A stretch of DNA of 64,000 bases from Peteryoungia rhizophila (lineage in GTDB: Bacteria > Pseudomonadota > Alphaproteobacteria > Rhizobiales > Rhizobiaceae), in assembly GCF_004912145.1 (NCBI RefSeq), contig NZ_STGT01000002.1, forward strand, positions 248,001 to 312,000, written 5' to 3'. Both the position numbers and the translations under genes were made by a program. Positions 7,473-24,074 of this stretch are shown here, one piece after another; within the stretch, counting starts at the first letter, position 1, and the number at the start of each line of letters is the position of its first letter. The notes beneath the pieces are model-generated. The model was given only the letters and a program-made list of their open reading frames with translations. It was not told the origin of the DNA and ran no database searches.

Positions 7473-8323
7473 GACGCGAGCCCTCAAAGACCGCGCTCGA
7501 CTATGCGCCGCTCGCCTTTCCCGCGGGCATGCTGATCCTGTTCTTCGTCATGCCTTTCGCGACGATGATCGCCGTCTCCTTCTTCAAGCGGGATCCGACC
7601 GGCTTCTATTCGCCGGACTTCGTTTTCGACAATTACGCTCGTTTCCTCAGCTTCTTCTTTGGCGGCGTACTCAGCTTCTCGCTGATGCTCGCGATTGCGG
7701 TCGCCGTCGTCTGCGTCGTTCTCGCCTTACCGTTCACCTATCTGCTCGCCCGGATGTCGCGCAAAGCGCAGGTCTTGTGGCTCGTGGCGCTGCTCTCCGT
7801 GCTGTCGCTCTCGGAAGTCATCATCGGTTTTGCCTGGTCGACGCTGTTTTCGCGAACAGCTGGCATCACCAATCTGTTGGTCATGATCGGTCTGATGGAA
7901 AGCCCGGTGGCGCTGATGCCGAATTTTGGTGCGGTGCTGACGGGCATGACCTACCAGGCGCTGCCTTATACCGTGCTCGTGCTCTATCCCGCGCTGGTCC
8001 GCCTCGATCCAACGCTCACCGAAGCCGCGCGCACGCTCGGGGCCTCGCCGCTCAAGGCCTTCTTCACCGTGGTCGTGCCGGCGCTCCGCAATACGTTGAT
8101 CGCCACGCTGATCATGGTCTTCATCTTCGCGCTCGGCTCCTATCTCCTGCCGCAGATCCTCGGCCGGCCGCAGCACTGGACGCTGTCGGTGCTGATCACC
8201 GACCAGGCGATCTATCAGTCCAACATGCCCTTTGCGGCAGCCATGGCCGTCTTCCTCGTGCTGGTCACGCTCGGCATGGTGGCGCTGACGCTGCTCATCG
8301 GTCGTAAGGGAGAGGCAGCATGA
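7469..8323 (+). CDS. ABC transporter permease, PotB-type
   Basis: 284 residues with about six hydrophobic segments; the first is about residues 14-36 (FPAGMLILFFVMPFATMIAVSFF). The EAA coupling loop is visible as TLTEAARTLGASPLKAFFTVVVPAL (about 185-209). It overlaps the ATPase gene by four bases upstream and the second permease by four bases downstream. It forms half of the inner-membrane channel of the guanidino/polyamine-type transporter. Confidence 0.9.
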   Translation: MRREPSKTALDYAPLAFPAGMLILFFVMPFATMIAVSFFKRDPTGFYSPDFVFDNYARFLSFFFGGVLSFSLMLAIAVAVVCVVLALPFTYLLARMSRKAQVLWLVALLSVLSLSEVIIGFAWSTLFSRTAGITNLLVMIGLMESPVALMPNFGAVLTGMTYQALPYTVLVLYPALVRLDPTLTEAARTLGASPLKAFFTVVVPALRNTLIATLIMVFIFALGSYLLPQILGRPQHWTLSVLITDQAIYQSNMPFAAAMAVFLVLVTLGMVALTLLIGRKGEAA

Positions 8324-9120
8324 ACACGGTCCTCACGCGTCTCTATTTCACGCTCATCGGCATTTTCCTTGCTGCGCCCATCGTTGTGGTCGCCGGCGTC
8401 TCGGTAAATGCTAAGCAGAGCCTCAACTTCCCGCCGCAGGGCTTTTCGCTCTCGTGGTACGGCGCGATCTTCACCGATCCCGGCTGGCGTGCTGCCCTAT
8501 TCGCCTCGGTCATCCTGGCGCTTTGTGCAGCTGCATTGGCGGTCGCTATCGCCCTGCCGCTCGCCTGGTTCCTCTGGCGGCGTCTTGCCCCCTGGGCGCA
8601 AGTGTTCCAACTGCTCGGCATCGCCCCTTTCACCCTGCCGCCGGTCATTACGGCACTCGGCTTGCTCACCTTCTGGGCGGCGACCGGCTTCTATGGCCAG
8701 CCCTGGACGGCCGTCATCAGCCACGCGATCTTCTTCGTGACGCTGCCCTTGGTGACGCTGTCACTCGGCTTCTCGGCGATCGATCGCTCACTGGTCGAGG
8801 CAGCCGCGACCATGGGCGCCGACGATCGGACGATCTTCCGCACGATCGTTTTGCCGCTGATCGCGCCCTATCTCGTCTCGGGCTATGCCTTCGCCTTTGT
8901 GCTCTCGCTCAACGAGTACATCGTCGCCTACATGACAGTCGGTTTCGTGATGGAGACACTGCCGATCAAGATCTTCAATGCCCTGCGTTACGGCTATACG
9001 CCGGTCATGGCGTCGGTGACGATCCTGTTCGTGGCGGTCGCTGCCATCATCTTCGGCCTCGTCGCCCGCTTCGGCGACCTGCCGAAACTGCTCGGGGCGA
9101 ATGCGGACGACCGGAGCTGA
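8320..9120 (+). CDS. ABC transporter permease, PotC-type
   Basis: 266 residues, six predicted membrane segments, EAA loop SLVEAAATMGADDRTIFRTIVLPL (about 155-178). It is the second channel subunit and the last gene of the operon that begins with the ureohydrolase. Start ATG overlaps the previous stop (ATGA). It converges on the methylmalonyl-CoA mutase gene. Confidence 0.9.
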   Translation: MNTVLTRLYFTLIGIFLAAPIVVVAGVSVNAKQSLNFPPQGFSLSWYGAIFTDPGWRAALFASVILALCAAALAVAIALPLAWFLWRRLAPWAQVFQLLGIAPFTLPPVITALGLLTFWAATGFYGQPWTAVISHAIFFVTLPLVTLSLGFSAIDRSLVEAAATMGADDRTIFRTIVLPLIAPYLVSGYAFAFVLSLNEYIVAYMTVGFVMETLPIKIFNALRYGYTPVMASVTILFVAVAAIIFGLVARFGDLPKLLGANADDRS

Positions 9121-9142
9121 ATCAGTCGTCCGCGGCGGGCGC

Positions 9143-9161
9143 TTCACCGAGGGGCGGTGAA
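9143..9161. terminator. possible hairpin terminator between convergent genes
   Basis: TTCACCG and CGGTGAA form a perfect 7-bp stem around AGGGG, in the 112-base gap between the convergent permease and mutase genes. There is no T-run next to it, so intrinsic termination is uncertain. Confidence 0.3.
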
Positions 9162-9232
9162 TACGCAAAGCCCTCTAGCTTTTTCGCTGCAGGCGGGCAC
9201 AGGTCTCCATGCTCTTCCCCGAGCCGTCAGCC

Positions 9233-11368
<2,136 letters not shown>

Positions 11369-11424
11369 CCGGTCTTCTCCCTGCTCCGCATGGACTGCGG
11401 GCCGACGACTAGTATTCCTGTTTG

Positions 11425-11534
11425 CCCCTCACGCTGCCCTCTCCTCGCAAGCGGGGAGAGGGAGGTGCTAAGCGGTGCCATCTCGGCCTTCTCCCCGTTC
11501 ACGGGGAGAAGGTGCCGGCAGGCGGATGAGGGGC
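11425..11534. repeat. RIME-like intergenic palindromic repeat, copy 2
   Basis: About 110 bases bounded by GCCCCTCACGC and GGCGGATGAGGGGC. It holds the same two hairpins as copy 1 (CTCTCCTCGCAAGCGGGGAGAG and CTTCTCCCC-GTTCAC-GGGGAGAAG), but in the opposite orientation. It lies between pccA and the mutase gene and may modulate read-through. Confidence 0.8.
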
Positions 11535-11552
11535 TTCCCTCTGCAAGAACTG

Positions 11553-13562
<2,010 letters not shown>

Positions 13563-13628
13563 TTTCTTCTCTCCCTGCCGTTTATCATCCGGGTTCAGCC
13601 TCCAGGCGCTCATGCGCGAAGACTGCCG

Positions 13629-14042
13629 CTATTCCCGCACCTTCTTCTTCAAACCCTTCGCCACACTCTGCTCGTCCTTCACGTCGCCAAAGGCTTCCGG
13701 GAAGTTCTTGCGGGCCAGCTGCTCGTTGATCTTCAGCTTGGCGAAGTAGGATTGCGGATCAAAGCCGCGCTCTGCGGCGATGACTTCGCGGCCGAAGAGG
13801 CGGCAGAGGCGTTCGCCGTCGAGATTGCCGCGCTCGAAGGTTTCGGTGCCGAAAAACTGCCAGAGCGCCTGCATGAAGCCGAGGTCGGCCAGCGCCACGG
13901 TCGGGTCCATGGTGCGGTGGCGCGGCCAGTTGGTGAGCGGCGTCACCTTCGGGTTCGGCCGGCGGATCGTGAATTGCCACTGGGTTCCGGGCAATCCGAG
14001 CGGAAAGCCCTGATGTTTCGGCATCAGCGAATCTTTTGCCAT
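13629..14042 (-). CDS. conserved protein of unknown function, paralogue of its upstream neighbour
   Basis: 137 residues. I do not recognise the family. It is clearly related to the product of 14047-14424: both share KH-GFP-G-PGT, QFTIRR-NP, ALW--FG-E-FERGNLD, RL--LFGREV, FDP-SY and ARK-FPE-F-DV. It adds a charged C-terminal tail (QSVAKGLKKKVRE). No signal peptide, membrane segment or metal motif is visible; the many aromatic and basic residues suggest a soluble, perhaps nucleotide- or protein-binding fold. It starts 4 bases after the previous stop and 66 bases before pccA, so it is part of the propionate operon and is likely a tandem duplicate with a role linked to it. Confidence 0.85.
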   Translation of the reverse strand: MAKDSLMPKHQGFPLGLPGTQWQFTIRRPNPKVTPLTNWPRHRTMDPTVALADLGFMQALWQFFGTETFERGNLDGERLCRLFGREVIAAERGFDPQSYFAKLKINEQLARKNFPEAFGDVKDEQSVAKGLKKKVRE

Positions 14043-14046
14043 GGCG

Positions 14047-14424
14047 TTACACCTCGAACACGTCTTCGAAGGATTCGGGGAAGCTCTTGCGCGCCACCTT
14101 CTCGTCGATGACGAGCATGGCCTCGTAAGACAGCGGGTCGAATTCCTTCGTGGCGGGGACTACTTCGCGACCGAAGAGGAGGCTCAGGCGTGCGGCATCG
14201 AGATTGCCACGCTCGAAAGGCTCCGCGCCGAAGTGGTGCCAGAGTGCATGCAGGAAGGCGGCATCGATCCGGTGTTCCTTGGTGCCGGGGCGCGCCTTGC
14301 GCGGGAAGGCCTTGATGGGGGTCACGCCGCGCGGATTGGCGCGGCGGATAGTGAATTGCACACCGGTCCCCGGCATGCCGCCGGGGAAACCGCGATGTTT
14401 GGTCATGTCGGGCAAGCTCGGCAT
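14047..14424 (-). CDS. conserved protein of unknown function, first of a tandem pair
   Basis: 125 residues with the same unrecognised core as 13629-14042, including FTIRRANPRGVTP near 24-36, PFERGNLDAARLSLLFGREV near 68-87 and DEKVARKSFPESFEDV at the C-terminus. AAGGAGAG stands five bases before the ATG, a strong ribosome site that fixes this start over an internal ATG six codons later. The gene is packed between yghU (9 bases away) and its paralogue (4 bases away), so all three are probably translated from one message with pccB and pccA. Confidence 0.85.
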   Translation of the reverse strand: MPSLPDMTKHRGFPGGMPGTGVQFTIRRANPRGVTPIKAFPRKARPGTKEHRIDAAFLHALWHHFGAEPFERGNLDAARLSLLFGREVVPATKEFDPLSYEAMLVIDEKVARKSFPESFEDVFEV

Positions 14425-14433
14425 GGTCTCTCC

Positions 14434-15345
14434 TTACGCCGCAGCGATCTTGTCCTGCGTCTTCGTCAAGAAGTCGGAGGCATCGTGGCGTTCATGCAGC
14501 TGTTCGGAAAGCGGGCCGTTGGTCTTGTTGACCATGGCGCCACGCTTGATGCCGGGACGGGCTGCGAGTTGTTTCGTCCAGCGCTGGACATGTTCGTAGT
14601 CGTCGACGGCTAAGAAGGTGCCGGCATCGTCGTAGGCGCCATGCAGGGCGAGACGTCCATACCAGGGCCAGATCGCCATATCGGCGATTGTGTAATCCTT
14701 GCCGGCCATGAATTCGTTATCGGCGAGGTGGCGGTTTAGCACGTCCATCTGGCGCTTGACCTCCATGGCATAACGGTCGATGGCGTATTGGATCTTCATC
14801 GGCGCGTAAGAGTAGAAATGGCCAAAGCCGCCGCCGAGGAATGGGGCGGAGCCCATCTGCCAAAACAGCCAGTTCAGCGTCTCGGCCCGCGCGCGTGTTT
14901 CCGTCGGCAGGAAGGCGCCAAACTTTTCGGCGAGGTAGGTCATGATCGAGGCGGATTCGAACAGGCGGATTGGCTTGCCGCCATCCTTCGGCGCATGGTC
15001 CATCAGGGCGGGGATCTTGGAGTTCGGATTGACCTCGACAAAGCCCGAGCCGAATTGATCGCCCTTGCCGATATTGATCAGCCAGGCATCGTATTCCGCA
15101 CCCTCATGACCGGCTTCGAGCAGTTCCTCAAGCAGGATCGTTACCTTCTGGCCGTTCGGCGTTGCCAGCGAATAAAGCTGCAGCGGGTGCTTGCCGACCG
15201 GGCGTTCCACTTCTGTCTGCGCGCCTGCGGTCGGGCGGTTGATGCTGGCAAAGGCGCCGCCATTGCCGGGCTCCCATGTCCAAACTTTTGGCGGCACGTA
15301 GCCGGCCGGCAGGTTCTTCTCGGGCGGGAACTTTTCGTCGCTCAT
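14434..15345 (-). CDS. yghU: YghU-type glutathione S-transferase / GSH-dependent disulfide-bond oxidoreductase
   Basis: 303 residues with the long N-terminal arm typical of YghU (PPKVWTWEPGNGGAFASINRPTAGAQTE), then a thioredoxin-like domain (LQLYSLATPNGQKVTILLEEL; NPNSKIPALMDH) and an all-helical C-domain (DYTIADMAIWPWYGRL). Nu-class YghU proteins bind two glutathiones and reduce disulfides or peroxides. Its position inside a propionate operon is unusual. It may handle thiol or electrophile stress tied to acyl-CoA metabolism, but that is inference. The start follows GAAAGGATCCGATTTC, some 30 bases after the DUF4393 stop. Confidence 0.88.
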   Translation of the reverse strand: MSDEKFPPEKNLPAGYVPPKVWTWEPGNGGAFASINRPTAGAQTEVERPVGKHPLQLYSLATPNGQKVTILLEELLEAGHEGAEYDAWLINIGKGDQFGSGFVEVNPNSKIPALMDHAPKDGGKPIRLFESASIMTYLAEKFGAFLPTETRARAETLNWLFWQMGSAPFLGGGFGHFYSYAPMKIQYAIDRYAMEVKRQMDVLNRHLADNEFMAGKDYTIADMAIWPWYGRLALHGAYDDAGTFLAVDDYEHVQRWTKQLAARPGIKRGAMVNKTNGPLSEQLHERHDASDFLTKTQDKIAAA

Positions 15346-15384
15346 GAAATCGGATCCTTTGATGGTTGCTGTTCAATCTGGACC

Positions 15385-16314
15385 TTAGGTGCGGTTTGCA
15401 AGCCCGCAACGCAAGGCAAAATGATATCCGAGCGGTCTAAGAGCGTAGTAAGTACACGTAGTGGCCCATTGCTTATATTCAAACCAGTGCACGTGAATTC
15501 GTTCTATAAGACCAATAACTTCAAGTATGTTGTAGTCTACTTCAAATTCATCCTTGTACTCATTTTCCCCCGCGTCTCCGAATAGCATGCTTCCGTCAGG
15601 AAGCTCGACCATGATATTTACAATGGCAATTCCAGTATGATCGAGGAGTTCAAGGACGGAATTTGCAATTCTTTCGGCGGAAAATTCTCCGGAGATTTTG
15701 TTCAATTGCTCAGTAATGCTATTTTTAGCGACACTCGAGTTGTACCATATGTTGATGTTGTCCATCGCAATTTCTAGTTGATGTTGGTTTACGTCTCCTA
15801 CGATGGATTTGAGCGCTTTCGCTTGGGATAGTGACATTTGAGAAATTATATTGCAGAAGTGGATGTATTCCGGTTTGTAATCTTCGTATGATGACGCAAG
15901 TAGGCTTGCCCAAAGGTCCTGCAGTTCCGGTTCTGGTCCTTCGATAGATGCCTTTTCGATGAACGGAATAAGGAACTTCGTTGGTGTTGCCGCTCCAGCA
16001 TGGTCGATTGCTCTGATTTTGCTTCGTGCCTGCAGAACGATGTCATAAAGAACACTGTCTTGATGTACCCGCAACAACTCGCGTTTATGGCGAAGTTGAT
16101 CGCCACGAAGCCCGGCCCATTCCGTAAGAGGCGATATTAGGTCCAGCCATGATGAAGCCTTGGCTCGGCTAACGTCCTCCGGAATGGTTTCGGTTGTGAT
16201 CTTCTTCCGCTCAATGATCAACTTCGCCTCAGCGCTCGCCCCGAGCTTCGGCATCTTTGTTTCGGGTTCATTTATGCCTTGCTGCAACCCGTCAATTGGC
16301 TTTTGATCGCTCAT
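15385..16314 (-). CDS. DUF4393 / Abi-alpha-like protein
   Basis: 309 residues from the ATG at 16314. The region about 100-150 (FLIPFIEKASIEGPEPELQDLWASLLASS and then HFCNIISQMSLSQAKALKSI) matches DUF4393, the family of abortive-infection alpha proteins; the preceding segment RLKAR-like basic helix plus KFLIPF is also typical. The fold is helical and no enzymatic motif is seen; no membrane segment is evident. The codon use is visibly AT-richer than all neighbours (about 15425-16260), a sign of acquisition. Yet its ATG lies 7 bases after the pccB stop (TGA-GGAAAAG-ATG), so the pccB stop overlaps its ribosome site. Either an abortive-infection or stress gene has been inserted in frame with the operon, or the family has an unrecognised metabolic role. 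Family call fairly sure, role unknown. Confidence 0.72.
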   Translation of the reverse strand: MSDQKPIDGLQQGINEPETKMPKLGASAEAKLIIERKKITTETIPEDVSRAKASSWLDLISPLTEWAGLRGDQLRHKRELLRVHQDSVLYDIVLQARSKIRAIDHAGAATPTKFLIPFIEKASIEGPEPELQDLWASLLASSYEDYKPEYIHFCNIISQMSLSQAKALKSIVGDVNQHQLEIAMDNINIWYNSSVAKNSITEQLNKISGEFSAERIANSVLELLDHTGIAIVNIMVELPDGSMLFGDAGENEYKDEFEVDYNILEVIGLIERIHVHWFEYKQWATTCTYYALRPLGYHFALRCGLANRT

Positions 16315-16321
16315 CTTTTCC

Positions 16322-17854
16322 TCACAACGGGATCGTGTCGTGCTTTTTCCAATGCGTGCCGACCTGCTTGTTGCGCAAACTTGCAAAGGCCTTGGCAATC
16401 CGGCGGCGCGAGGAATGCGGCATGATCACTTCGTCGATGAAGCCGCGTTCTGCCGCCTTGAAGGGGTTGGCGAAGTTGACTTCGTATTCCTTCGTCCGCG
16501 CCGCGATCTTCTCGGCGTCGCCGAGTTCCGAGCGGTAGAGGATTTCAGTGGCCCCCTTCGCGCCCATCACGGCGATTTCGGCGGTCGGCCAGGCGTAGTT
16601 GATGTCGGCGCCGATATGTTTGGAGGCCATGACGTCATAGGCGCCGCCATAGGCCTTGCGGGTGATGAGGGTCACCATCGGCACGGTCGCCTGGCTATAG
16701 GCGAACAAGAGTTTCGCGCCATGCTTGATGACGCCACCATATTCCTGGGCGGTTCCGGGCAGGAAACCGGGTACGTCGACGAGCGTCAGGATCGGGATCG
16801 AGAAGGCATCGCAGAAGCGGACGAAACGGGCGGCCTTGCGCGATGAATCGATGTCGAGGCAGCCGGCGAGCACCATGGGCTGGTTGGCGACGACGCCGAC
16901 CGTCTGGCCCTCCATGCGGATGAAGCCGGTGATGATGTTCTTGGCAAAGGCTTCCTGGACCTCGAAGAAATCGCCCTCGTCGGCCAGCGCGTAGATCAGC
17001 TCCTTCATGTCATAGGGCTTGTTCGACGAGTCCGGGATCAGTGTGTCGAGCCGCATCTCGATGCGGGCCGGATCGTCATGGAAGGGGCGGACCGGCGGCT
17101 TTTCGCGGTTGTTGAGCGGCAGGAAGTCGAAGAGCAGGCGGACCTGTTCCAGCGCCTCGATGTCGTTTTCGTATGCGCCATCGGCGACGGAGGATTTCTT
17201 GGTGTGGGTCGAGGCGCCGCCCAGCTCTTCGGCGGTGACGATCTCATTGGTGACGGTCTTCACCACGTCGGGGCCGGTGACGAACATGTAGGAGCTGTCG
17301 CGCACCATGAAGATGAAATCGGTCATGGCGGGTGAATAGACGGCACCGCCGGCGCAGGGGCCCATGATCACGGAGATCTGCGGAATGACGCCTGAGGCAT
17401 CGACATTGCGCTTGAAGACATCGGCATAACCGGCAAGCGAGGCCACACCTTCCTGAATGCGGGCGCCGCCCGAGTCATTCAGGCCGATCACGGGCGCGCC
17501 CACCTTCATCGCCATGTCCATGATCTTGCAGATCTTCTGGGCATGGGTTTCCGACAGCGAGCCGCCGAGCACGGTGAAATCCTGGGAGAAGACATAGACC
17601 TGGCGGCCGTTGATCGTGCCCCAGCCGGTGACGACGCCGTCGCCCGGCACCTTCTGTTCGGCCATGCCGAAATCGGTGCAGCGATGCGTGACATACATGT
17701 CGTATTCTTCAAACGAGCCTTCGTCGAGCAGCACGTCCACACGCTCGCGGGCGGTCAGTTTGCCCTTGCCATGCTGGGCGGCGATGCGCTTTTCGCCGCC
17801 GCCGAGGCGGGCCTCGTCGCGACGGGCTTCGAGCTGGTCCAGGATCGTCAGCAT
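16322..17854 (-). CDS. pccB: propionyl-CoA carboxylase, carboxyltransferase (beta) subunit
   Basis: 510 residues, normal for PccB. The two crotonase-like halves show [20 protein letters not shown] and [16 protein letters not shown] in the first (acyl-CoA binding) and [25 protein letters not shown] plus [12 protein letters not shown] in the second (carboxybiotin binding). It transfers CO2 from biotin to propionyl-CoA, giving (S)-methylmalonyl-CoA. The start [12 protein letters not shown] follows GGAGGATAT at ideal spacing; longer in-frame extensions are rejected. It is the first gene of the operon and divergent from pccR, 134 bases away. Confidence 0.96.
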
Positions 17855-17958
17855 ATATCCTCCCGAATGGTCTTCTGGCTTCTGAGCCTTGATGTGACAC
17901 CTATTCCACTGTGCCGCAGAAGAAAACGGTTGAACAGGTGCATCTGTGGATTTATGAA

Positions 17959-17988
17959 TTTGCAAAGTGAAAATTGCGAATTTGCGAA
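17959..17988. promoter_or_regulatory. candidate PccR/ScfR operator: three TTTGCAAA-like boxes
   Basis: Three octamers occur in 30 bases: TTTGCAAA (17959-17966), ATTGCGAA (17973-17980) and TTTGCGAA (17981-17988), the last touching the pccR start codon. I recall TTTGCAAA half-sites for PccR of Rhodobacter sphaeroides and a similar core for corynebacterial RamB, both of the same regulator family. The placement between divergent pccB and pccR, abutting pccR, suggests autorepression plus control of pccB. The spacing here (14 and 8) is not the direct N4 repeat I remember. Confidence 0.6.
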
Positions 17989-19398
17989 ATGGCCATCGGG
18001 AAACTCTTCATCGGCCGCAAGGTCCGCGACATCCGCCAGGCAAACGGCACCACCCAGGCGCAGTTTGCCGATATGGTCGGCATTTCCACCAGCTATCTCA
18101 ACCAGATCGAAAACAATCAGCGCCCGGTCTCGGCCTCGGTGCTTTTGGCACTGGCGGAAAAGTTCGGCATCGATATCACCGAGCTGTCGTCAGGCCAAAA
18201 CGACCGCCTGCTCTCGGCGCTGACGGAGGCGCTCTCCGATCCGCTGTTCGAGACCTACTCGCCGAGCCTGCAGGAGCTGAAGCTCGTCACCCAGAATGCA
18301 CCCGGCTTTGCCCATGCGCTGATTGCTGCGCACCAGGCATACAGGCGCGGCAACGAGCAGCTGGCGAGCCTCGACGACCGGCTGGGGGCGGCACCCAGCC
18401 AGGAGGTGACGCCTTACGACGAAGTGCGCGACTTCTTCCATTTCGTCGACAATTACATCCACGATCTCGACCTTGCCGCCGAGCAACTGGCGACAGAGCT
18501 GCAGCTCGGGGAGGGGGAGAATTATGCGGCGCTCTCGGGCCATCTCGAAGCGCGGCACGGCGTGCGCGTGGTGCGCGGCGAGGCGGGCGACGAGGCCATC
18601 CGCCGCTTCGATCCGGTGGGGCGGATCCTCACCGTCAGCCGCTATGCCTCGGCCCCCACCCGCGATTTCCAGATCGCCATCCAGATCGCCCAGCTGGCCG
18701 CTGCCACCAAGATCGACCAGGTGCTGAAACAGGCGAATTTTCGCAGCGAAGAGGCGGTCGAGATCTGTCGCATGGGACTGCACAACTACTTCGCCGGCGC
18801 GCTGATCCTGCCCTATCGCAGCTTCCTCACCGCCGCGCGGGATCTCCGCCACGACATCGAACTGCTCGCCGCCCGTTTCGAGGCCTCGCTCGAACAGGTC
18901 TGCCACCGTCTTTCGACGCTGCAGCGCCCGGGCCTCAAGGGCGTGCCGATCTTCTTTGCCCGCATCGACCGGGCCGGCAATATCACCAAGCGCCACAGCG
19001 CAGCTCGCCTGCAATTCGCCCGTTTCGGCGCGGCCTGTCCGCTGTGGAATGCCCATCAGGCCTTCGAGACGCCCGGCCGGATCATTCGCCAGACGGCGGA
19101 AACGCCTGATGGCGTGCGCTATCTCTGCATCGCCACCCAGGTATCAAAAGGCTCCGCCGGCTTCCGCGCCGCCAATCCGCGCTACGCGCTCGCCCTCGGC
19201 TGCGAGATCTCCTATGCCGGCGCCTTCGTCTATGCCGACGACCTCGACCTCTCCAACCGCGGCGCCTTCGACCCGATCGGCATTTCCTGCCGCATCTGCG
19301 AGCGCATCAAATGCACCAGCCGCGCTGTGCCACCATTGAAACGGAAGTTGGTGGTGGATCATCGGGTGCGGAACCCGATGCCGTATGAGATTGAGTGA
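17989..19398 (+). CDS. pccR: PccR-like short-chain fatty acyl-CoA regulator (ScfR family, XRE HTH)
   Basis: 469 residues. N-terminal XRE-type HTH about 5-62 ([39 protein letters not shown]), a central region with an IrrE/peptidase-like remnant (about 120-290), and a cysteine-bearing C-terminal domain ([22 protein letters not shown]) typical of DUF2083/ScfR proteins. ScfR proteins sense acyl-CoAs and control their catabolic genes; PccR controls propionyl-CoA carboxylase. The ATG at 17989 ([11 protein letters not shown]) matches the family start and is preferred over one five codons upstream, because that would put the third box inside the gene. Divergent from pccB, its presumed target. Confidence 0.88.
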
Positions 19399-19500
19399 GA
19401 GCGCCTTGGTTTGTGAGATCGTCGACAATTTTGGGTTGTAAGTTTCGCGCCAGCTTTTGCCGCTAGCTCTTGTCTAAGAAGCGCGAAGCGGAGTGAGGCG

Positions 19501-20199
19501 ATGCAGATCAGTCAGTCCACGAACACCTATGTGGCAAAATCTGCCAGTTCGAGCTCTGCTTCCGGGGCGAAGAGCCCGGATCAGAGTTTCGGCTCGTTCT
19601 TCAATGACGGCGACTATGCATCCAAGGACAATGGCCTGTTCAAGAACCTGCTCCAGGATCCTGAACTGCAGGACAATTACGTGCGCCGTGCTGACGGTGG
19701 ATACGAGTTCATCCCCGACGTTGAACGCGGGCTGCGCTCCACGAGCGTCAGCATCTTGGCCAATCTGATCGAAGAGCAGAATGGCTATGACTACAATGCG
19801 GTAGAAGCTGTGGGCCTTTTCACGCCGAACGAACTTGCAGCATTTCGTCAAATGACTGGCTATAATCTCGTCCAAGCTGGCGGAATGGTGACTGTGACCG
19901 ATGACTACGGGCGCGGTGTACCTGCGGCTGACCAAGCCCAGGTCATGGCAGCTTGGGAAGCGTTCGATGTCGCCAAGGGAATCCAGGAATATTCCGATCC
20001 CGGCGGGGAATTGACAGTTGCTGATATTCAAAGCGCCGCTCGGTGGGTTGCAGAAGTCAGAGGTGGCGACGCGGCTTTCTGGGATGACATTTTCAATATG
20101 ATTGATGGTCTTGCTTCTTCCGACAGCCCGCTCGCATCCGGCGAAAGCAACGTTTCGGAGCAAGACCTCGTCACGGAAGCCGCGGAGGTAGCTCGTTAG
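19501..20199 (+). CDS. hypothetical protein, Ser-rich N-terminus
   Basis: 232 residues; family not recognised. The first 30 residues are rich in Ser, Ala and Lys (KSASSSSASGAKSPDQ) and look disordered, without a signal peptide. The rest is acidic and looks helical, with a region of aromatic and acidic residues (EEQNGYDYNAVEAVGLFTPNELAAF) and a middle DDYGRGVPAADQ. GGAGTGAGGCG directly precedes the ATG, so translation is well supported. Base use is a little less GC-rich than the flanks. It stands alone between pccR and the convergent hibch gene. A secreted effector-like or cytoskeletal role cannot be judged from sequence. Confidence 0.7.
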   Translation: MQISQSTNTYVAKSASSSSASGAKSPDQSFGSFFNDGDYASKDNGLFKNLLQDPELQDNYVRRADGGYEFIPDVERGLRSTSVSILANLIEEQNGYDYNAVEAVGLFTPNELAAFRQMTGYNLVQAGGMVTVTDDYGRGVPAADQAQVMAAWEAFDVAKGIQEYSDPGGELTVADIQSAARWVAEVRGGDAAFWDDIFNMIDGLASSDSPLASGESNVSEQDLVTEAAEVAR

Positions 20200-20220
20200 T
20201 CGTAGCCGAGCTTCGAGTGA

Positions 20221-21294
20221 TTAGCCAAACAACCGCTCATCCCTCGCCGCAAAGAACGCCTCCACACTCTCCGGCGCCACATCCTCCAGCGTCGCCGGCG
20301 CCCATTTAGGGTTCCTGTCCTTGTCGATGATCGCCGCGCGGATGCCTTCGTAGAAGTCGGGAACCTTGACTACCTGCAGCGTGCCGGCGAATTCGCGTTC
20401 GAGGCAGGTTTCGAGGTCCCGGGAGGCGCGGGCTGCGCGCAGCATGCGGAGCGTGACCTTCAGGCTGGTCGGGGACTTGGCGCGCATGGCCGCAAGCGTT
20501 CGGGTAGCGAGGTCGCCCTTTTCCCGTTCGAGGGCGGCGATGATCTCCTCCACCGTGTCGAAGGCGAAGCAGTGGTCGATCATGTCTCGGCCTTCGGAAA
20601 AGATGCCTTTCGGGCCGTCCACCGTGTAATCGCGGATCGTCGAGGCGATCGATTGGCCAAGGGCGGGCGCGGGGAGGGCGGCGATCCGTTCCAAGAGTTC
20701 GGCCACCCGGTCCGGCGGGACATACCAGTCGGCAAAGCCTGCGGTGATGGCATCGGCGCCGTTCACCGCCTCGCCGGTCAGGCCCATCCAGGTGCCGAGT
20801 TCGCCCGGTGCGCGCGACAGGAGCCAGGTGGCGCCGATATCGGGGAAGAAGCCGATGGCGGTTTCGGGCATGGCGAGTTTGGTCGTTTCGGTGACGATGC
20901 GGTGGCTGCCATGGCTTGAGATGCCGACGCCGCCGCCCATGGTGATGCCGTCCATCACGACGACATAGGGCTTCTTGAAGCCGGCGATGCGGGCGTTCAG
21001 GCGGTATTCGGCCTTGAGGAAGTGGGAGGCCTTGCCATCACCGGCCTTGCCGCTCTCATAGAACATCCTGATGTCGCCGCCGGCGCAAAGCCCGCGTTCG
21101 CCTTCGCCGGTGACGAGGACGGCGGCGACGTCGCGTTCGGCCTCGAACGCGTCGAGCGCCTTGCCGAAATCCATCACCATGTCTTGCGAGAGGCTGTTCA
21201 AGACGCGCGGGCGATTGAGGGCGATGAGGCCGAGTGCGCCCTTTTTCCCCGTCAGGATCTCATTGCCCTGATAGTCCGCCTCAAGATATCGCAT
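20221..21294 (-). CDS. 3-hydroxyisobutyryl-CoA hydrolase (enoyl-CoA hydratase/isomerase superfamily)
   Basis: 357 residues, the length of HIBCH rather than the ~260 of ordinary crotonases. Oxyanion-hole segments are GEGERGLCAGGDIRMFYE and VVMDGITMGGGVGISSHG; the catalytic pair lies in MPETAIGFFPDIGATWLLSR. The enzyme hydrolyses 3-hydroxyisobutyryl-CoA in valine breakdown, a route that ends in propionyl-CoA. This makes functional sense beside the propionyl-CoA operon, although it is a separate transcript. GGGAGGAC precedes the ATG. Confidence 0.9.
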   Translation of the reverse strand: MRYLEADYQGNEILTGKKGALGLIALNRPRVLNSLSQDMVMDFGKALDAFEAERDVAAVLVTGEGERGLCAGGDIRMFYESGKAGDGKASHFLKAEYRLNARIAGFKKPYVVVMDGITMGGGVGISSHGSHRIVTETTKLAMPETAIGFFPDIGATWLLSRAPGELGTWMGLTGEAVNGADAITAGFADWYVPPDRVAELLERIAALPAPALGQSIASTIRDYTVDGPKGIFSEGRDMIDHCFAFDTVEEIIAALEREKGDLATRTLAAMRAKSPTSLKVTLRMLRAARASRDLETCLEREFAGTLQVVKVPDFYEGIRAAIIDKDRNPKWAPATLEDVAPESVEAFFAARDERLFG

Positions 21295-21366
21295 GCCGTC
21301 CTCCCTTGTATTTTGAGAGAGTTAGATATGCGTCGCTGAGAAAGGGCAAGTGCGCCGATGGTCGGA

Positions 21367-22323
21367 TCAGGTCACGAGATTGCGCGGGGTGCCTGCCAGG
21401 AAGAGCTCGATATTCTCGATCAGCTGGTCGGCCAGCGCCTGGATCGCCTCCCGGCTCGCCCAGGCGACATGTGGCGTGAGGATGACGTTGTCTCTGGCTG
21501 CGATGCGCATCATCGGGCTGTCGGGGGCGGGCGGTTCGCCATCGGTCACGTCGAAGCCGGCGCCGGCGATCTGGCCGGCGTCGAGCGCCTTTTCCAGCGC
21601 CAGTTCGTCGACGAGGCCGCCGCGACCGGTGTTGATGAGAAGCGGCCGGCGTTCCATCAGCGCGAATTCCCGGGCACCGATCACGCCGCGCGTTTCCGGC
21701 GTCAGCGGGCAGTGGAGCGTGATCACGTCAGAACGCTTCATGACCTCGTCGAACGCCGTTTGCCCGGGCTTCAGCTCGGTTGCGCCGCGTCGGCCGGCGG
21801 CGAGCACGGTCATGCCGAAGGCCTCGGCGATCTTGCCCACCGACTGGCCAAGCGTGCCATGGCCGATGATGCCGAGCGTCGAGCCGCCGAGGTCTGAAAT
21901 CGGATAATCGAAATAGCAGAATTGTGCGGCCTGCTGCCAGCGTCCTTCGATCACCGACTGGCGATAGGGCAGGATCGAGCGGCGCAGCGCCAGCATCAGG
22001 GCGAAGGTGTGTTCAGGCACCGTGTGTTTGGCGTAATTCCTGATATTGCAGACGGCGATGCCACGCGCCCTGGCTTCCGCGAGATCGACGATATCGGTGC
22101 CGGTGGCGGAGACGGCGATCAGCTTGAGTTTTGTGGCGCCGGCAATTGCCTCGGCGCGGACAGGGGCCTTGTTGGTGATCACGACATCGGCGTCGCGGAT
22201 GCGCTCAGCCACTTCATGCGGTTCGGTTCGGGCATGGACTACCATCTCATGCGGCACGGAGGGCGCGCGGACCACGGTTTCCGGCGACAGCGTGTCGCGG
22301 TCGAGAAAGACGATACGGATCAT
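21367..22323 (-). CDS. D-2-hydroxyacid dehydrogenase, glycerate/hydroxypyruvate-like
   Basis: 318 residues. NAD-binding Rossmann motif GIIGHGTLGQSVGKIAEAFG, substrate arginine in SVATGTDIVDLAEARARGI context, catalytic NTGRGGLVDELAL and the active-site histidine in LTPHVAWASREA. NAD(P)-dependent reduction of a 2-oxo acid such as hydroxypyruvate is expected; the LTPHVAWAS ending resembles glycerate dehydrogenase (HprA). The ATG follows GGAGGTCCTCC. It is 60 bases before the GST gene on the same strand, so co-transcription with the GST and Rieske genes is possible. Confidence 0.85.
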   Translation of the reverse strand: MIRIVFLDRDTLSPETVVRAPSVPHEMVVHARTEPHEVAERIRDADVVITNKAPVRAEAIAGATKLKLIAVSATGTDIVDLAEARARGIAVCNIRNYAKHTVPEHTFALMLALRRSILPYRQSVIEGRWQQAAQFCYFDYPISDLGGSTLGIIGHGTLGQSVGKIAEAFGMTVLAAGRRGATELKPGQTAFDEVMKRSDVITLHCPLTPETRGVIGAREFALMERRPLLINTGRGGLVDELALEKALDAGQIAGAGFDVTDGEPPAPDSPMMRIAARDNVILTPHVAWASREAIQALADQLIENIELFLAGTPRNLVT

Positions 22324-22382
22324 GGAGGACCTCCCTGCGTTGTCATCGACCTAGCCGAGCGGCTTTCGGCCAGCAAGGCAGG

Positions 22383-23009
22383 TCAATGGTAATCCGGTAC
22401 GCCCGGCATGGTGGTGAAGCCCGGAAGCGCGCGGAAGCGGCGCAGCCAGCGGCGAAGCGCCGGGTATTCGTCGTGGTCGATGCCGCAGTCGCGCGAGAGG
22501 GCAAAGCTCGGCAGGAGTGCCAAGTCGGCCAGCGTCGGGGTGCCGCCAACGAACCAGTCCGAGCCTTCGATCTGCCGGAGCGTCATGTGGTCTTCCATGA
22601 TGCGGAAGGCTTTGCGGGCGGCCTTGAGGTCGGCCTCGCTTGCCCCTTCGGAGGTGAAGAGGGCGGCCTCGCGCGCGTCCACGGCGGGCTTCAGCTCGCG
22701 GCCGGAAAAGCCCAGCCATTGCTGGACGCGTCCGAAGTCGCCGGGATCGGCAGGCAGCCAGGGGCTATCAGGCGCTTGGGCGCGAACGAGATAGGCCAGG
22801 ATGGCGGCGGTGCCGAAAAGCCTGACGTTGCCATCTTCAAGGATCGGCAGCGTGCCAGTCGGATTGAGCGCCAGCATATGCGGCTTTTCCTGCTCGCGGC
22901 CCGGTGCCTTGTCGACGGCAACTGTCTCGAAGGAGAGGCCGAGCATGGAGAGGAGAAGGCGGACGCGGAAACCGTTTTCGTCGAGGTGGTAGTCGTAAAG
23001 TCTGATCAT
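22383..23009 (-). CDS. glutathione S-transferase family protein
   Basis: 208 residues. Thioredoxin-like N-domain MIRLYDYHLDENGFRVRLLLSMLG with the glutathione contact NPTGTLPILEDG, then a helical C-domain with the N-cap motif GGTPTLADLALLPSF. The ATG at 23009 overlaps the stop of the Rieske gene in TGATG, so the two are translationally coupled; a GTG three bases earlier is the alternative. In aromatic-degradation operons such GSTs act in ring-cleavage or dehalogenation steps, but the substrate here is unknown. Confidence 0.87.
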   Translation of the reverse strand: MIRLYDYHLDENGFRVRLLLSMLGLSFETVAVDKAPGREQEKPHMLALNPTGTLPILEDGNVRLFGTAAILAYLVRAQAPDSPWLPADPGDFGRVQQWLGFSGRELKPAVDAREAALFTSEGASEADLKAARKAFRIMEDHMTLRQIEGSDWFVGGTPTLADLALLPSFALSRDCGIDHDEYPALRRWLRRFRALPGFTTMPGVPDYH

Positions 23010-23680
23010 CACGCGGCCTCCACCATCTGGGATTCAACGCGATTGCGCAGGTCCGTGGCCCAGAGAATCAGGTCGCGGCGGATGGCGGCGGAGGTGTTGC
23101 CGCTCACCGTGATGTGCAAGGCCGTCCGGCCGGCGTTGCGGGGCTGGGCTGCGATCAGGACAGCCACGTCGTAACCTTCGAAAGTCACTGTGCCGGTCTC
23201 GCTCGGGAGCGGCCTGTAACCCTCGGGTGGGGCTGCGGTCACCGCCAGCAGAGCCGCATTCGTCGGCAGGTCGAGGAAAAGGCTGCGAACTGCTTCGGCG
23301 GTCTCGGCAAGTGTCGAGAGGTCCGCTGCATCAGCCCCTTCCGGCGCCATCCAGACGATCCCGGCGCGTTCGGTTGCGGCAAAGGTTGGCACCTTGATGG
23401 TCTGGGGCACCTCGAGATCGGGGTGTGCCGGAATGTAGCGACACTGGCCGCCGGTATCGTAGCGCCAGCCGTGATAGAGGCAGGCGATATGGTCGCCGCG
23501 CACGAAGCCGAAGCTCATGCGCATGCCGCGATGCGGACAGCGATCCTCCCAGACATGGGCCTCGCCCTTGTCGTCGCGCCAGACAACACGCTCCTCGCCG
23601 TTGACGAGCGTTCCGGCAGAGGTTCCGGCTTCGATGTCGGCGGAGAGGGCAACGGGGATCCAGGGAGAGGCTGATGTCAT
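23009..23680 (-). CDS. Rieske [2Fe-2S] protein lacking an oxygenase catalytic domain
   Basis: 223 residues. The cluster ligands are clear: CPHRG and CLYHGW (C-x-H ... C-x2-H), with the surrounding VWEDRCPHRGMRMSFGFVRGDHIACLYHGWRYD typical of the N-terminal domain of aromatic-ring oxygenase alpha subunits rather than ferredoxins. After about residue 110 a short ~110-residue domain follows that has none of the mononuclear-iron motif expected. The missing catalytic part appears to be encoded by the divergent gene at 24075. Its start ATG overlaps the upstream small gene's end by four bases, and it is coupled to the GST downstream. Confidence 0.85.
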   Translation of the reverse strand: MTSASPWIPVALSADIEAGTSAGTLVNGEERVVWRDDKGEAHVWEDRCPHRGMRMSFGFVRGDHIACLYHGWRYDTGGQCRYIPAHPDLEVPQTIKVPTFAATERAGIVWMAPEGADAADLSTLAETAEAVRSLFLDLPTNAALLAVTAAPPEGYRPLPSETGTVTFEGYDVAVLIAAQPRNAGRTALHITVSGNTSAAIRRDLILWATDLRNRVESQMVEAA

Positions 23681-23958
23681 GATGCGGCCTTTGCGGGCAG
23701 GTCTTCGTCGGTTGGAAATCTCGTCACGTCGAGCACGATGCTGTCATAGGGGCCAAGGCTGACCGCCATTTCGAAGGCATCGATCAGGGCTTCCGGTCCC
23801 GAGAGTGTCAGGCGACAGCGATCGTGGTCGCAGGCGGCAATCGTGAGCCCGAGCGATAGCCGTGCCGCGCGATGTTCGGCAAAGGCGATGAAGCCAGCCG
23901 GCTCCAGCCTCCCGGAAAAGGTGAAGCCAACGGTCGAATGGTCGGCCTTTGCCGTCAT
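23677..23958 (-). CDS. small acylphosphatase-like protein
   Basis: 93 residues from an ATG at 23958; a TTG at 23985 would give 102. The body (FTFSGRLEPAGFIAFAEHRAARLSLGLTIAACDHDRCRLTLSGPEALIDAFEMAVSLGPYD) has the ordering of beta-alpha-beta-beta-alpha-beta acylphosphatases, including a SGPEALIDAFE helix, but the usual catalytic arginine in a GRVQGV motif is absent. The fold call is therefore tentative. It overlaps the Rieske gene by four bases and is the first gene of that minus-strand set, so it probably works with the oxygenase. Confidence 0.6.
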   Translation of the reverse strand: MTAKADHSTVGFTFSGRLEPAGFIAFAEHRAARLSLGLTIAACDHDRCRLTLSGPEALIDAFEMAVSLGPYDSIVLDVTRFPTDEDLPAKAAS

Positions 23959-24074
23959 CGGATGGGGATCAGTGTTGCCTTGCAATTGTGCGCGCTCTAA
24001 TTTTTGGGCAATCTAGCGGGCGACGAGATGGGGGTTCAAGTGGTTTCTCCCGTGCTCCAGAGGAAAGACAGACT

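Follow-up and report, generated by a model that had tools for sequence, protein, structure and literature searches.

EF2833 (Abi-alpha), encoded by prophage 6 of Enterococcus faecalis V583, is the closest described counterpart, by family, of the gene analyzed here. In the account given of it in PMC6356687, infective centres are cut to ~10%, with adsorption and host death unchanged and lysis occurring ~10 minutes earlier. Insertion into an operon of metabolism has been described for Thermus thermophilus HB8, where, according to the relevant part of PMC2701414, an MNT-HEPN pair absent in HB27 is inserted in the lysine operon.

The usual places to look for defence genes are islands, prophages and other mobile elements. 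The present case concerns small cargo, with Abi_alpha, an Mrr endonuclease and toxin-antitoxin (TA)-like pairs among it, that lies seamlessly inside a core catabolic operon in several genera, with no mobile-element gene seen beside it. The Abi_alpha gene in question (abi; protein P0001) lies in a 64,000-nucleotide stretch of Peteryoungia rhizophila DNA, the whole of which is referred to as the window (G000:C11:248001-312000, G000 being the window's 5.24-Mb genome). A preliminary description had presented it as an AT-rich, acquired member of a phage-defence family, coupled to pccB within a propionate operon. Not mentioned there was that the placement recurs across orders and is one case of a broader hotspot.

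Composition and junctions of the abi gene

The abi frame opens with ATG and runs for 309 codons to TAA with no internal stops (Table 1). The GC content of abi is 0.466. At third codon positions (GC3) it reaches 0.49, whereas 22 ORFs of the window that we picked as credible genes average 0.80 (sd 0.03, minimum 0.73); codon log-likelihood was -1.56 for P0001 and -0.89 (sd 0.08, minimum -1.02) for the same 22 ORFs. The lowest-GC 500-base intervals of the profiled region (8000-24000) are those over the gene (0.43-0.49). The codon use of abi is foreign, and the gene is AT-richer than its surroundings, as first described.

Table 1 Features of the propionate operon in the window.
Feature	Position	Strand	Evidence or remark
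Divergent regulator, HTH + IrrE-like + short-chain acyl-CoA regulator C-terminal domain (ScfRs)	17974..19398	+	PF09856 5.1e-64, PF06114, PF01381
pccB, propionyl-CoA carboxylase beta subunit (carboxyl transferase)	16322..17854	-	PF01039 3.3e-196
pccB stop and spacer	16315..16324	-	TGA 16322-16324, then 7-nt GGAAAAG, then abi ATG; from sequence
abi-alpha-like gene (P0001)	15385..16314	-	309 aa; PF14337 2.5e-14, PADLOC PDC-S47 1.9e-7
abi-yghU junction	15346..15384	-	39 nt; from sequence and comparison with relatives
yghU-like glutathione-dependent disulfide-bond oxidoreductase	14434..15345	-	NF008731 9.5e-149
s125, 125-aa conserved small protein	14047..14424	-	in 56/58 genus loci
s137, 137-aa conserved small protein, resembles s125	13629..14042	-	sequence and genus loci
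pccA, propionyl-CoA carboxylase alpha (biotin) subunit	11553..13562	-	PF18140 PCC_BT 1.2e-34 and biotin carboxylase domains
mcm, methylmalonyl-CoA mutase	9233..11368	-	PF01642 9.7e-242, B12-binding 4.4e-22

The start 7 nt after the pccB stop was confirmed in the sequence, as was the overlap of a ribosome-binding-like stretch (GAGGA), upstream of the abi ATG, with that stop. A simple consensus scan of the minus strand between 13500 and 18100 revealed no promoter-like or terminator-like sites. The metabolic coupling proposed in the preliminary description is supported in part, as the layout would permit co-transcription and coupled translation and the ScfRs-domain regulator adjoins pccB divergently, whereas propionate-linked expression stays presumptive. 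The gene is alone on its strand between pccB and yghU and has no adjacent small partner gene, which led us to reject a classical TA pair. The conserved small proteins s125 and s137 (13629-14424 of the window) match nothing in Pfam and, in NCBIfam, nothing near the cut-off.

At the downstream junction, the final 15 nt together with the yghU ATG (AAAGGATCCGATTTCATG) equal the upstream end of yghU in some cargo-free relatives. The pccB-yghU distance is 69-157 nt in the 26 genus loci that have yghU and no cargo after pccB, and a CCTATAT stretch is present in those of the 26 intergenic regions that were displayed. The rest of this intergenic stretch is absent in the window; since just the last 18 nt are shared with cargo-free loci, yghU start included, abi seems to have replaced it. 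Transcription of yghU would then depend on reading through abi.

Family assignment and predicted structure of the abi protein

Assignment to the phage-defence family DUF4393/Abi_alpha was upheld by PF14337, which scores 54.2 bits against a Pfam cut-off of 29 (E 2.5e-14, residues 99-242). The best stretch covers profile positions 16-154 of 196, with positions 155-196 lying outside it. A PADLOC profile, PDC-S47, matches residues 98-201 (1.9e-7), and NCBIfam gave no match to P0001. A central motif, EKASxE...W..LL, is present in P0001 and its relatives (25 rows of this type), with S123 and W135 invariant and E120 and L138 found in at least 90% of the 25 rows.

A first structure model of P0001 was poor (pLDDT 59.5), and a structure search with it gave nothing. 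The model built from the 25 rows (m13bf83853a2b) reached a pLDDT of 76 and has a disordered N-terminus (1-45) followed by helices (46-144) that bear the motif. Beyond these, a winged helix is predicted, split into two parts (149-172 and 255-302) around a variable insert (173-254). The mean share of the commonest residue is highest in the core (103-144; 0.60), intermediate in the winged-helix parts (0.33-0.40) and lowest in the insert (0.22). Foldseek comparison of this model with the PDB and viral models returned nothing at E 0.001 or better, the top viral match being A0A291AUV8, which carries no name (E 0.006). Further structure comparison found weak MarR/HxlR-like winged helices near Z 6 (best Z 6.1), an arrangement that may be a common one. 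A sequence search for relatives of solved structure gave five matches, none better than E 0.26. The modeled arrangement, in which a DNA-binding-like fold carries a variable insert, would suit a sensor of phage components.

Accessory genes in the pcc operon of the genus

When P0001 was used as query, 2 of 63 genus genomes matched, namely the window's own and G039. The G039 copy aligns with P0001 over residues 57-303 (27% identity, E 2.9e-12), the two genus copies being 25-27% identical, and it also lies in the pcc operon, but in the s137-pccA gap rather than between pccB and yghU. For comparison of the junctions, 60 genomes were searched and pccB was matched in 59 of them; leaving out the one partial match, pccB with downstream DNA was obtained for 58 genus loci, the window's own included. 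Abi occupies the pccB-yghU gap in the window's genome alone (1/58). In 44 of the 58 loci, the next core gene follows pccB at a distance below 180 nt.

Gap sizes between pcc core genes differ widely among genus loci, and AT-richer cargo is common in the operon of relatives. Counted over 57 loci (dropping L078, whose DNA ends before pccA), Pfam-identified cargo occurs in the pccB-pccA stretch of 27, comprising DUF4160/DUF2442, KptA, TPR, HXXEE and Abi_alpha, and extends to 34 loci and eight families when the region up to mcm and antisense ParDE-like genes are included. The remaining loci have none of these families, and the same place may be empty or differently filled among relatives. We know of no defence role for the KptA, TPR and HXXEE cargo, so location in the pcc operon does not by itself prove defence. 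All cargo-family matches between pccB and pccA are co-directional with the operon. ParD and ParE matches (n=39) all lie on the opposite strand; the ParDE-like pair occupies the pccA-mcm gap (e.g., L034, L036, L038 and L041), with ParD in 20/57 and ParE in 19/57 loci, where ParE (0.0085) is under the Pfam cut-off and ParD (2.6e-8) is below the NCBIfam cut-off.

The same family may enter different gaps. DUF4160 was found in pccB-yghU (7), pccB-s125 (1) and s137-pccA (6), and KptA (RNA 2'-phosphotransferase, PF01885) in three different gaps (L037, L044, L074, L072 and L087). Across whole genus genomes, 5 of 6 KptA matches and 14 of 77 DUF4160 matches, a few fragment matches counted, fall within the pcc operon. 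A table entry in PMC8198452 lists DUF4160 with DUF2442 as the TA pair dhiTA of Dickeya. No integrase, recombinase or transposase accompanied the cargo among the gap proteins searched, which represent part of the gap ORFs.

The enlargement of gaps was compared with two control regions, around sucA and atpA, in the same 20 genus genomes. Gaps at least 200 nt over the tenth percentile numbered 29/100 in pcc, 3/180 in the suc region and 0/80 in the atp region; the control core lists consist of greedy ORFs, some perhaps antisense or spurious. The nominal Fisher p of 6e-15 for pcc against both control regions (3/260 pooled) is too small, since the genomes are related and were treated as independent.

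Separately, the pccB stop was seen to be followed by degenerate extra copies of the last 10 nt of that genome's own pccB at 11 of 58 genus loci (e.g., L045, L049, L053, L077, L079 and L081), against 1.96 expected by shuffling. End-copies were also counted at pccA (7/32, 1.51 expected), s137 (4/28, 1.93 expected), yghU (0/19), s125 (0/56) and mcm (1/37), and at pccB in other genera (5/60, 2.14 expected). The pccB end-copies could be either a footprint of repeated insertion or the product of simple slippage.

Abi_alpha and other cargo at pccB beyond the genus

Far from being conserved in most Rhizobiaceae with native codon use, the family is rare: the Pfam model, free of bias from pcc seeds, found PF14337 in 14 of 394 family genomes (14 of 109 genera). 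Abi_alpha lies downstream of pccB in 7 of these 14, the window's genome included. A DUF4160-like gene separates the two in G352 and a short ORF in G101, whose contig ends before the position of pccA. Matches to the A2 profile were obtained in 10 of 397 genomes of the order and 6 of 385 of the class, 4 and 3 of them at pccB, respectively (the window's genome counted in both). In named genomes, 9 of 16 loci were at pccB, including Notoacmeibacter marinus, Rhizobium sp. L1K21 and Stappia stellulata, with one further locus beginning at a contig edge. Searches with A2 and A4 favour pcc copies, as their seeds are mainly of pcc type.

Counting named-genome loci that repeat a G genome once, 16 distinct Abi_alpha copies from several families and orders lie at pccB, and all 16 are co-directional with it. 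Downstream pccA was seen for 12 of the 16; the DNA of L117, L130 and L137 ends early, and pccA is absent from the ~8 kb downstream in L141. Junction distances were taken for 14 copies (L129 and L130 left out), in 6 of which the abi stop either overlaps the start of pccA or lies directly against it. The pcc stretch of Rhizobium sp. L1K21 contains a HigA antitoxin (TIGR02607 2.1e-24) in addition to abi. By eye, we take it also to hold a DUF4160-like gene, and we name the DUF4160-like gene of L115 and most neighbours at family Abi_alpha loci on the same footing. The neighbours of abi at other loci are, judged likewise, presumably aroA, cmk, suf, era, recO, tldD/pmbA and ubiH.

Cargo other than Abi_alpha is likewise present beyond the genus. 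In the family survey (60 of 96 pccB genomes read, 53 with pccA within 8 kb), genus cargo families were found in 10 loci. An Mrr_cat restriction endonuclease (1.7e-21) occupies the pccB-yghU gap of G066 (L195), the same gap as abi in the window, with a gap GC of 0.45, and a DUF559 protein (4.8e-40) lies between pccB and pccA in G170. By eye, a ~100-aa membrane-like protein precedes pccA in other genera (L167, L169, L171, L181, L189 and L202); for the L167 copy, neither Pfam nor NCBIfam gave a match. At another place, in Mesorhizobium caraganae (L150), an Abi_alpha relative sits tightly between two co-directional genes, aroA-like and cmk-like by eye, making this a second housekeeping operon with a junction style like that of the pcc copies.

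Wider Abi_alpha relatives include two on phage contigs and others at unrelated places, which makes the association with pcc a preference and not a rule. A search of viral contigs with A3 confirmed two relatives; with A4, none was confirmed there, and a search of named genomes with P0001 alone confirmed no relative. A plasmid or described-phage source for P0001 is unsupported, as tblastn at 1e-5 found nothing in 72,556 plasmid records or 50,697 phage records.

Phylogeny of the pcc copies

A tree of 27 rows was computed, from which L142 (running into a contig end), L158 (contig edge), L131-L133 (weak matches) and L105, L106, L107, L112, L114 and L116 (other Abi_alpha types) were dropped. The pcc label changes 8 times on this tree, at least 6 changes being forced by starred branches, and it is not clustered, as 183 of 500 label shuffles gave equally low counts. 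A single origin of the pcc copies as one clade was rejected by the AU test (p 4e-163), and again after removal of five of the six longest rows (22 rows, p 0.0004). Starred groups that are pcc-only do occur, one comprising L110, L115, L145 and L159 and another L108, L113 and L117.

In both trees, the sister of the window gene is L143 (support 99/89 and 97/88), which comes from a viral contig also encoding terminase, head and protease proteins; next to this pair is L138, a chromosomal copy elsewhere. The G039 copy pairs with L111, whose gene cluster we take, by eye, to be suf-like. The tree itself counts changes; gains are the likely direction, given that the sister is phage-borne, the codon use foreign and the gene rare. 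Acquisition, as proposed in the preliminary description, is supported by the foreign codon use, the single occurrence at the junction and nearest relatives that are a phage-borne gene and a chromosomal gene elsewhere. A plain one-off acquisition is ruled out by the recurrence at pccB in the family and order/class surveys.

Discussion

We consider it probable that abi in the window is single-gene, phage-type abortive-infection cargo held in an accessory-gene hotspot within the pcc operon. Divergent Abi_alpha genes that do not form one clade stand at pccB across Alphaproteobacteria, and in the genus, the pccB-yghU, s137-pccA and neighbouring gaps of the pcc operon either lack cargo or are filled with short cargo that differs among genomes; the Abi_alpha copies at pcc would represent separate gains. 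Abi_alpha would thus recur in this operon by separate routes because the operon serves as a landing strip for defence-like and TA-like genes, with cargo that presumably lacks a dedicated promoter and depends on transcription of pcc. In the window, translation of abi would begin by re-initiation at the pccB stop, and the protein may wait as a sensor built of helices and a winged helix, with the variable insert recognising a component of the phage. Infection would then lead to early lysis or death, as with EF2833, and few phages would be released. Defence activity of the window gene is suggested by this analogy, and propionate-dependent defence is possible. A farther-reaching proposal is that Alphaproteobacteria use their pcc operon as a dedicated platform for expressing defence and addiction cargo, in which promoterless anti-phage genes are recruited repeatedly because an acyl-CoA-responsive regulator gives a profitable level and timing, wiring immunity to propionyl-CoA status; this is conceivable, and we regard it as doubtful.

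Several other explanations were weighed. Neutral drift, in which the gaps merely tolerate insertions and abi is a phage remnant, domesticated or dying, with no defence role, would fit the phage-borne sister and the foreign composition, but it is unlikely considering the full-length open frame with its ribosome-binding-like site, the retained motif and the co-directional placement of 16/16 copies. Unrelated cargo in the same gaps, relatives in phages or beside other genes and the lack of Abi_alpha in most family genomes make it quite improbable that Abi_alpha works with or guards propionyl-CoA metabolism (e.g., acyl-CoA state or carboxylase activity) through a selected link, even though such a partnership would account for separate arrivals at pcc in several orders, with every copy co-directional and many touching or overlapping the stop or start of a neighbour. 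Vertical inheritance from a single ancestral pccB-abi arrangement, followed by rapid divergence and frequent loss, is highly improbable, as the two starred pcc-only groups that speak for it are outweighed by the AU rejection of one pcc clade, by genus members that are 25-27% identical and differ in gap and sister, and by foreign codon use and presence in just 14/394 family genomes.

Abortive-infection cargo in a pcc hotspot would have practical consequences, as it could escape scans based on scoring neighbouring genes as defence genes. The pcc cargo offers a simple test bed for the acquisition and expression of promoterless immunity genes together with a list of candidates, and near relatives with empty, differently filled or doubly filled gaps amount to a natural experiment. 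Among the matches listed in literature searches on Abi-alpha/DUF4393, DUF4160-DUF2442, defence hotspots, accessory genes in operons and pcc operons, none was recognised as describing a pcc hotspot, and an abortive-infection assay of the alphaproteobacterial Abi_alpha type was not found.

Of the known systems, PDC-S47, to our knowledge a candidate family with no tested mechanism, resembles P0001 at the level of the profile match, with the difference that the central part of P0001 alone is matched. EF2833, assigned to DUF4393 in the part of PMC6356687 that describes it, is likewise a single gene (272 aa versus 309 aa for P0001) of a family with members also in phages, a likeness at the level of family assignment. 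It differs in being prophage-borne with its own promoter, whereas P0001 is of a divergent alphaproteobacterial type and is encoded chromosomally in a catabolic operon. The P2/P4 phage hotspots (PMC9122126) and E. coli defence islands (PMC10121019), as far as these sources outline them, share with the pcc operon a fixed place with varying defence cargo; in contrast, the pcc place lies inside a core catabolic operon, takes up one or a few cargo genes and has no mobile-element gene among the gap proteins annotated. The MNT-HEPN pair of T. thermophilus, in the outline given in PMC2701414, is similarly a proposed TA module within a biosynthetic operon, carried by one strain and missing in another. 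That pair is a single case, whereas the pcc cargo comprises several families in several gaps and several orders.
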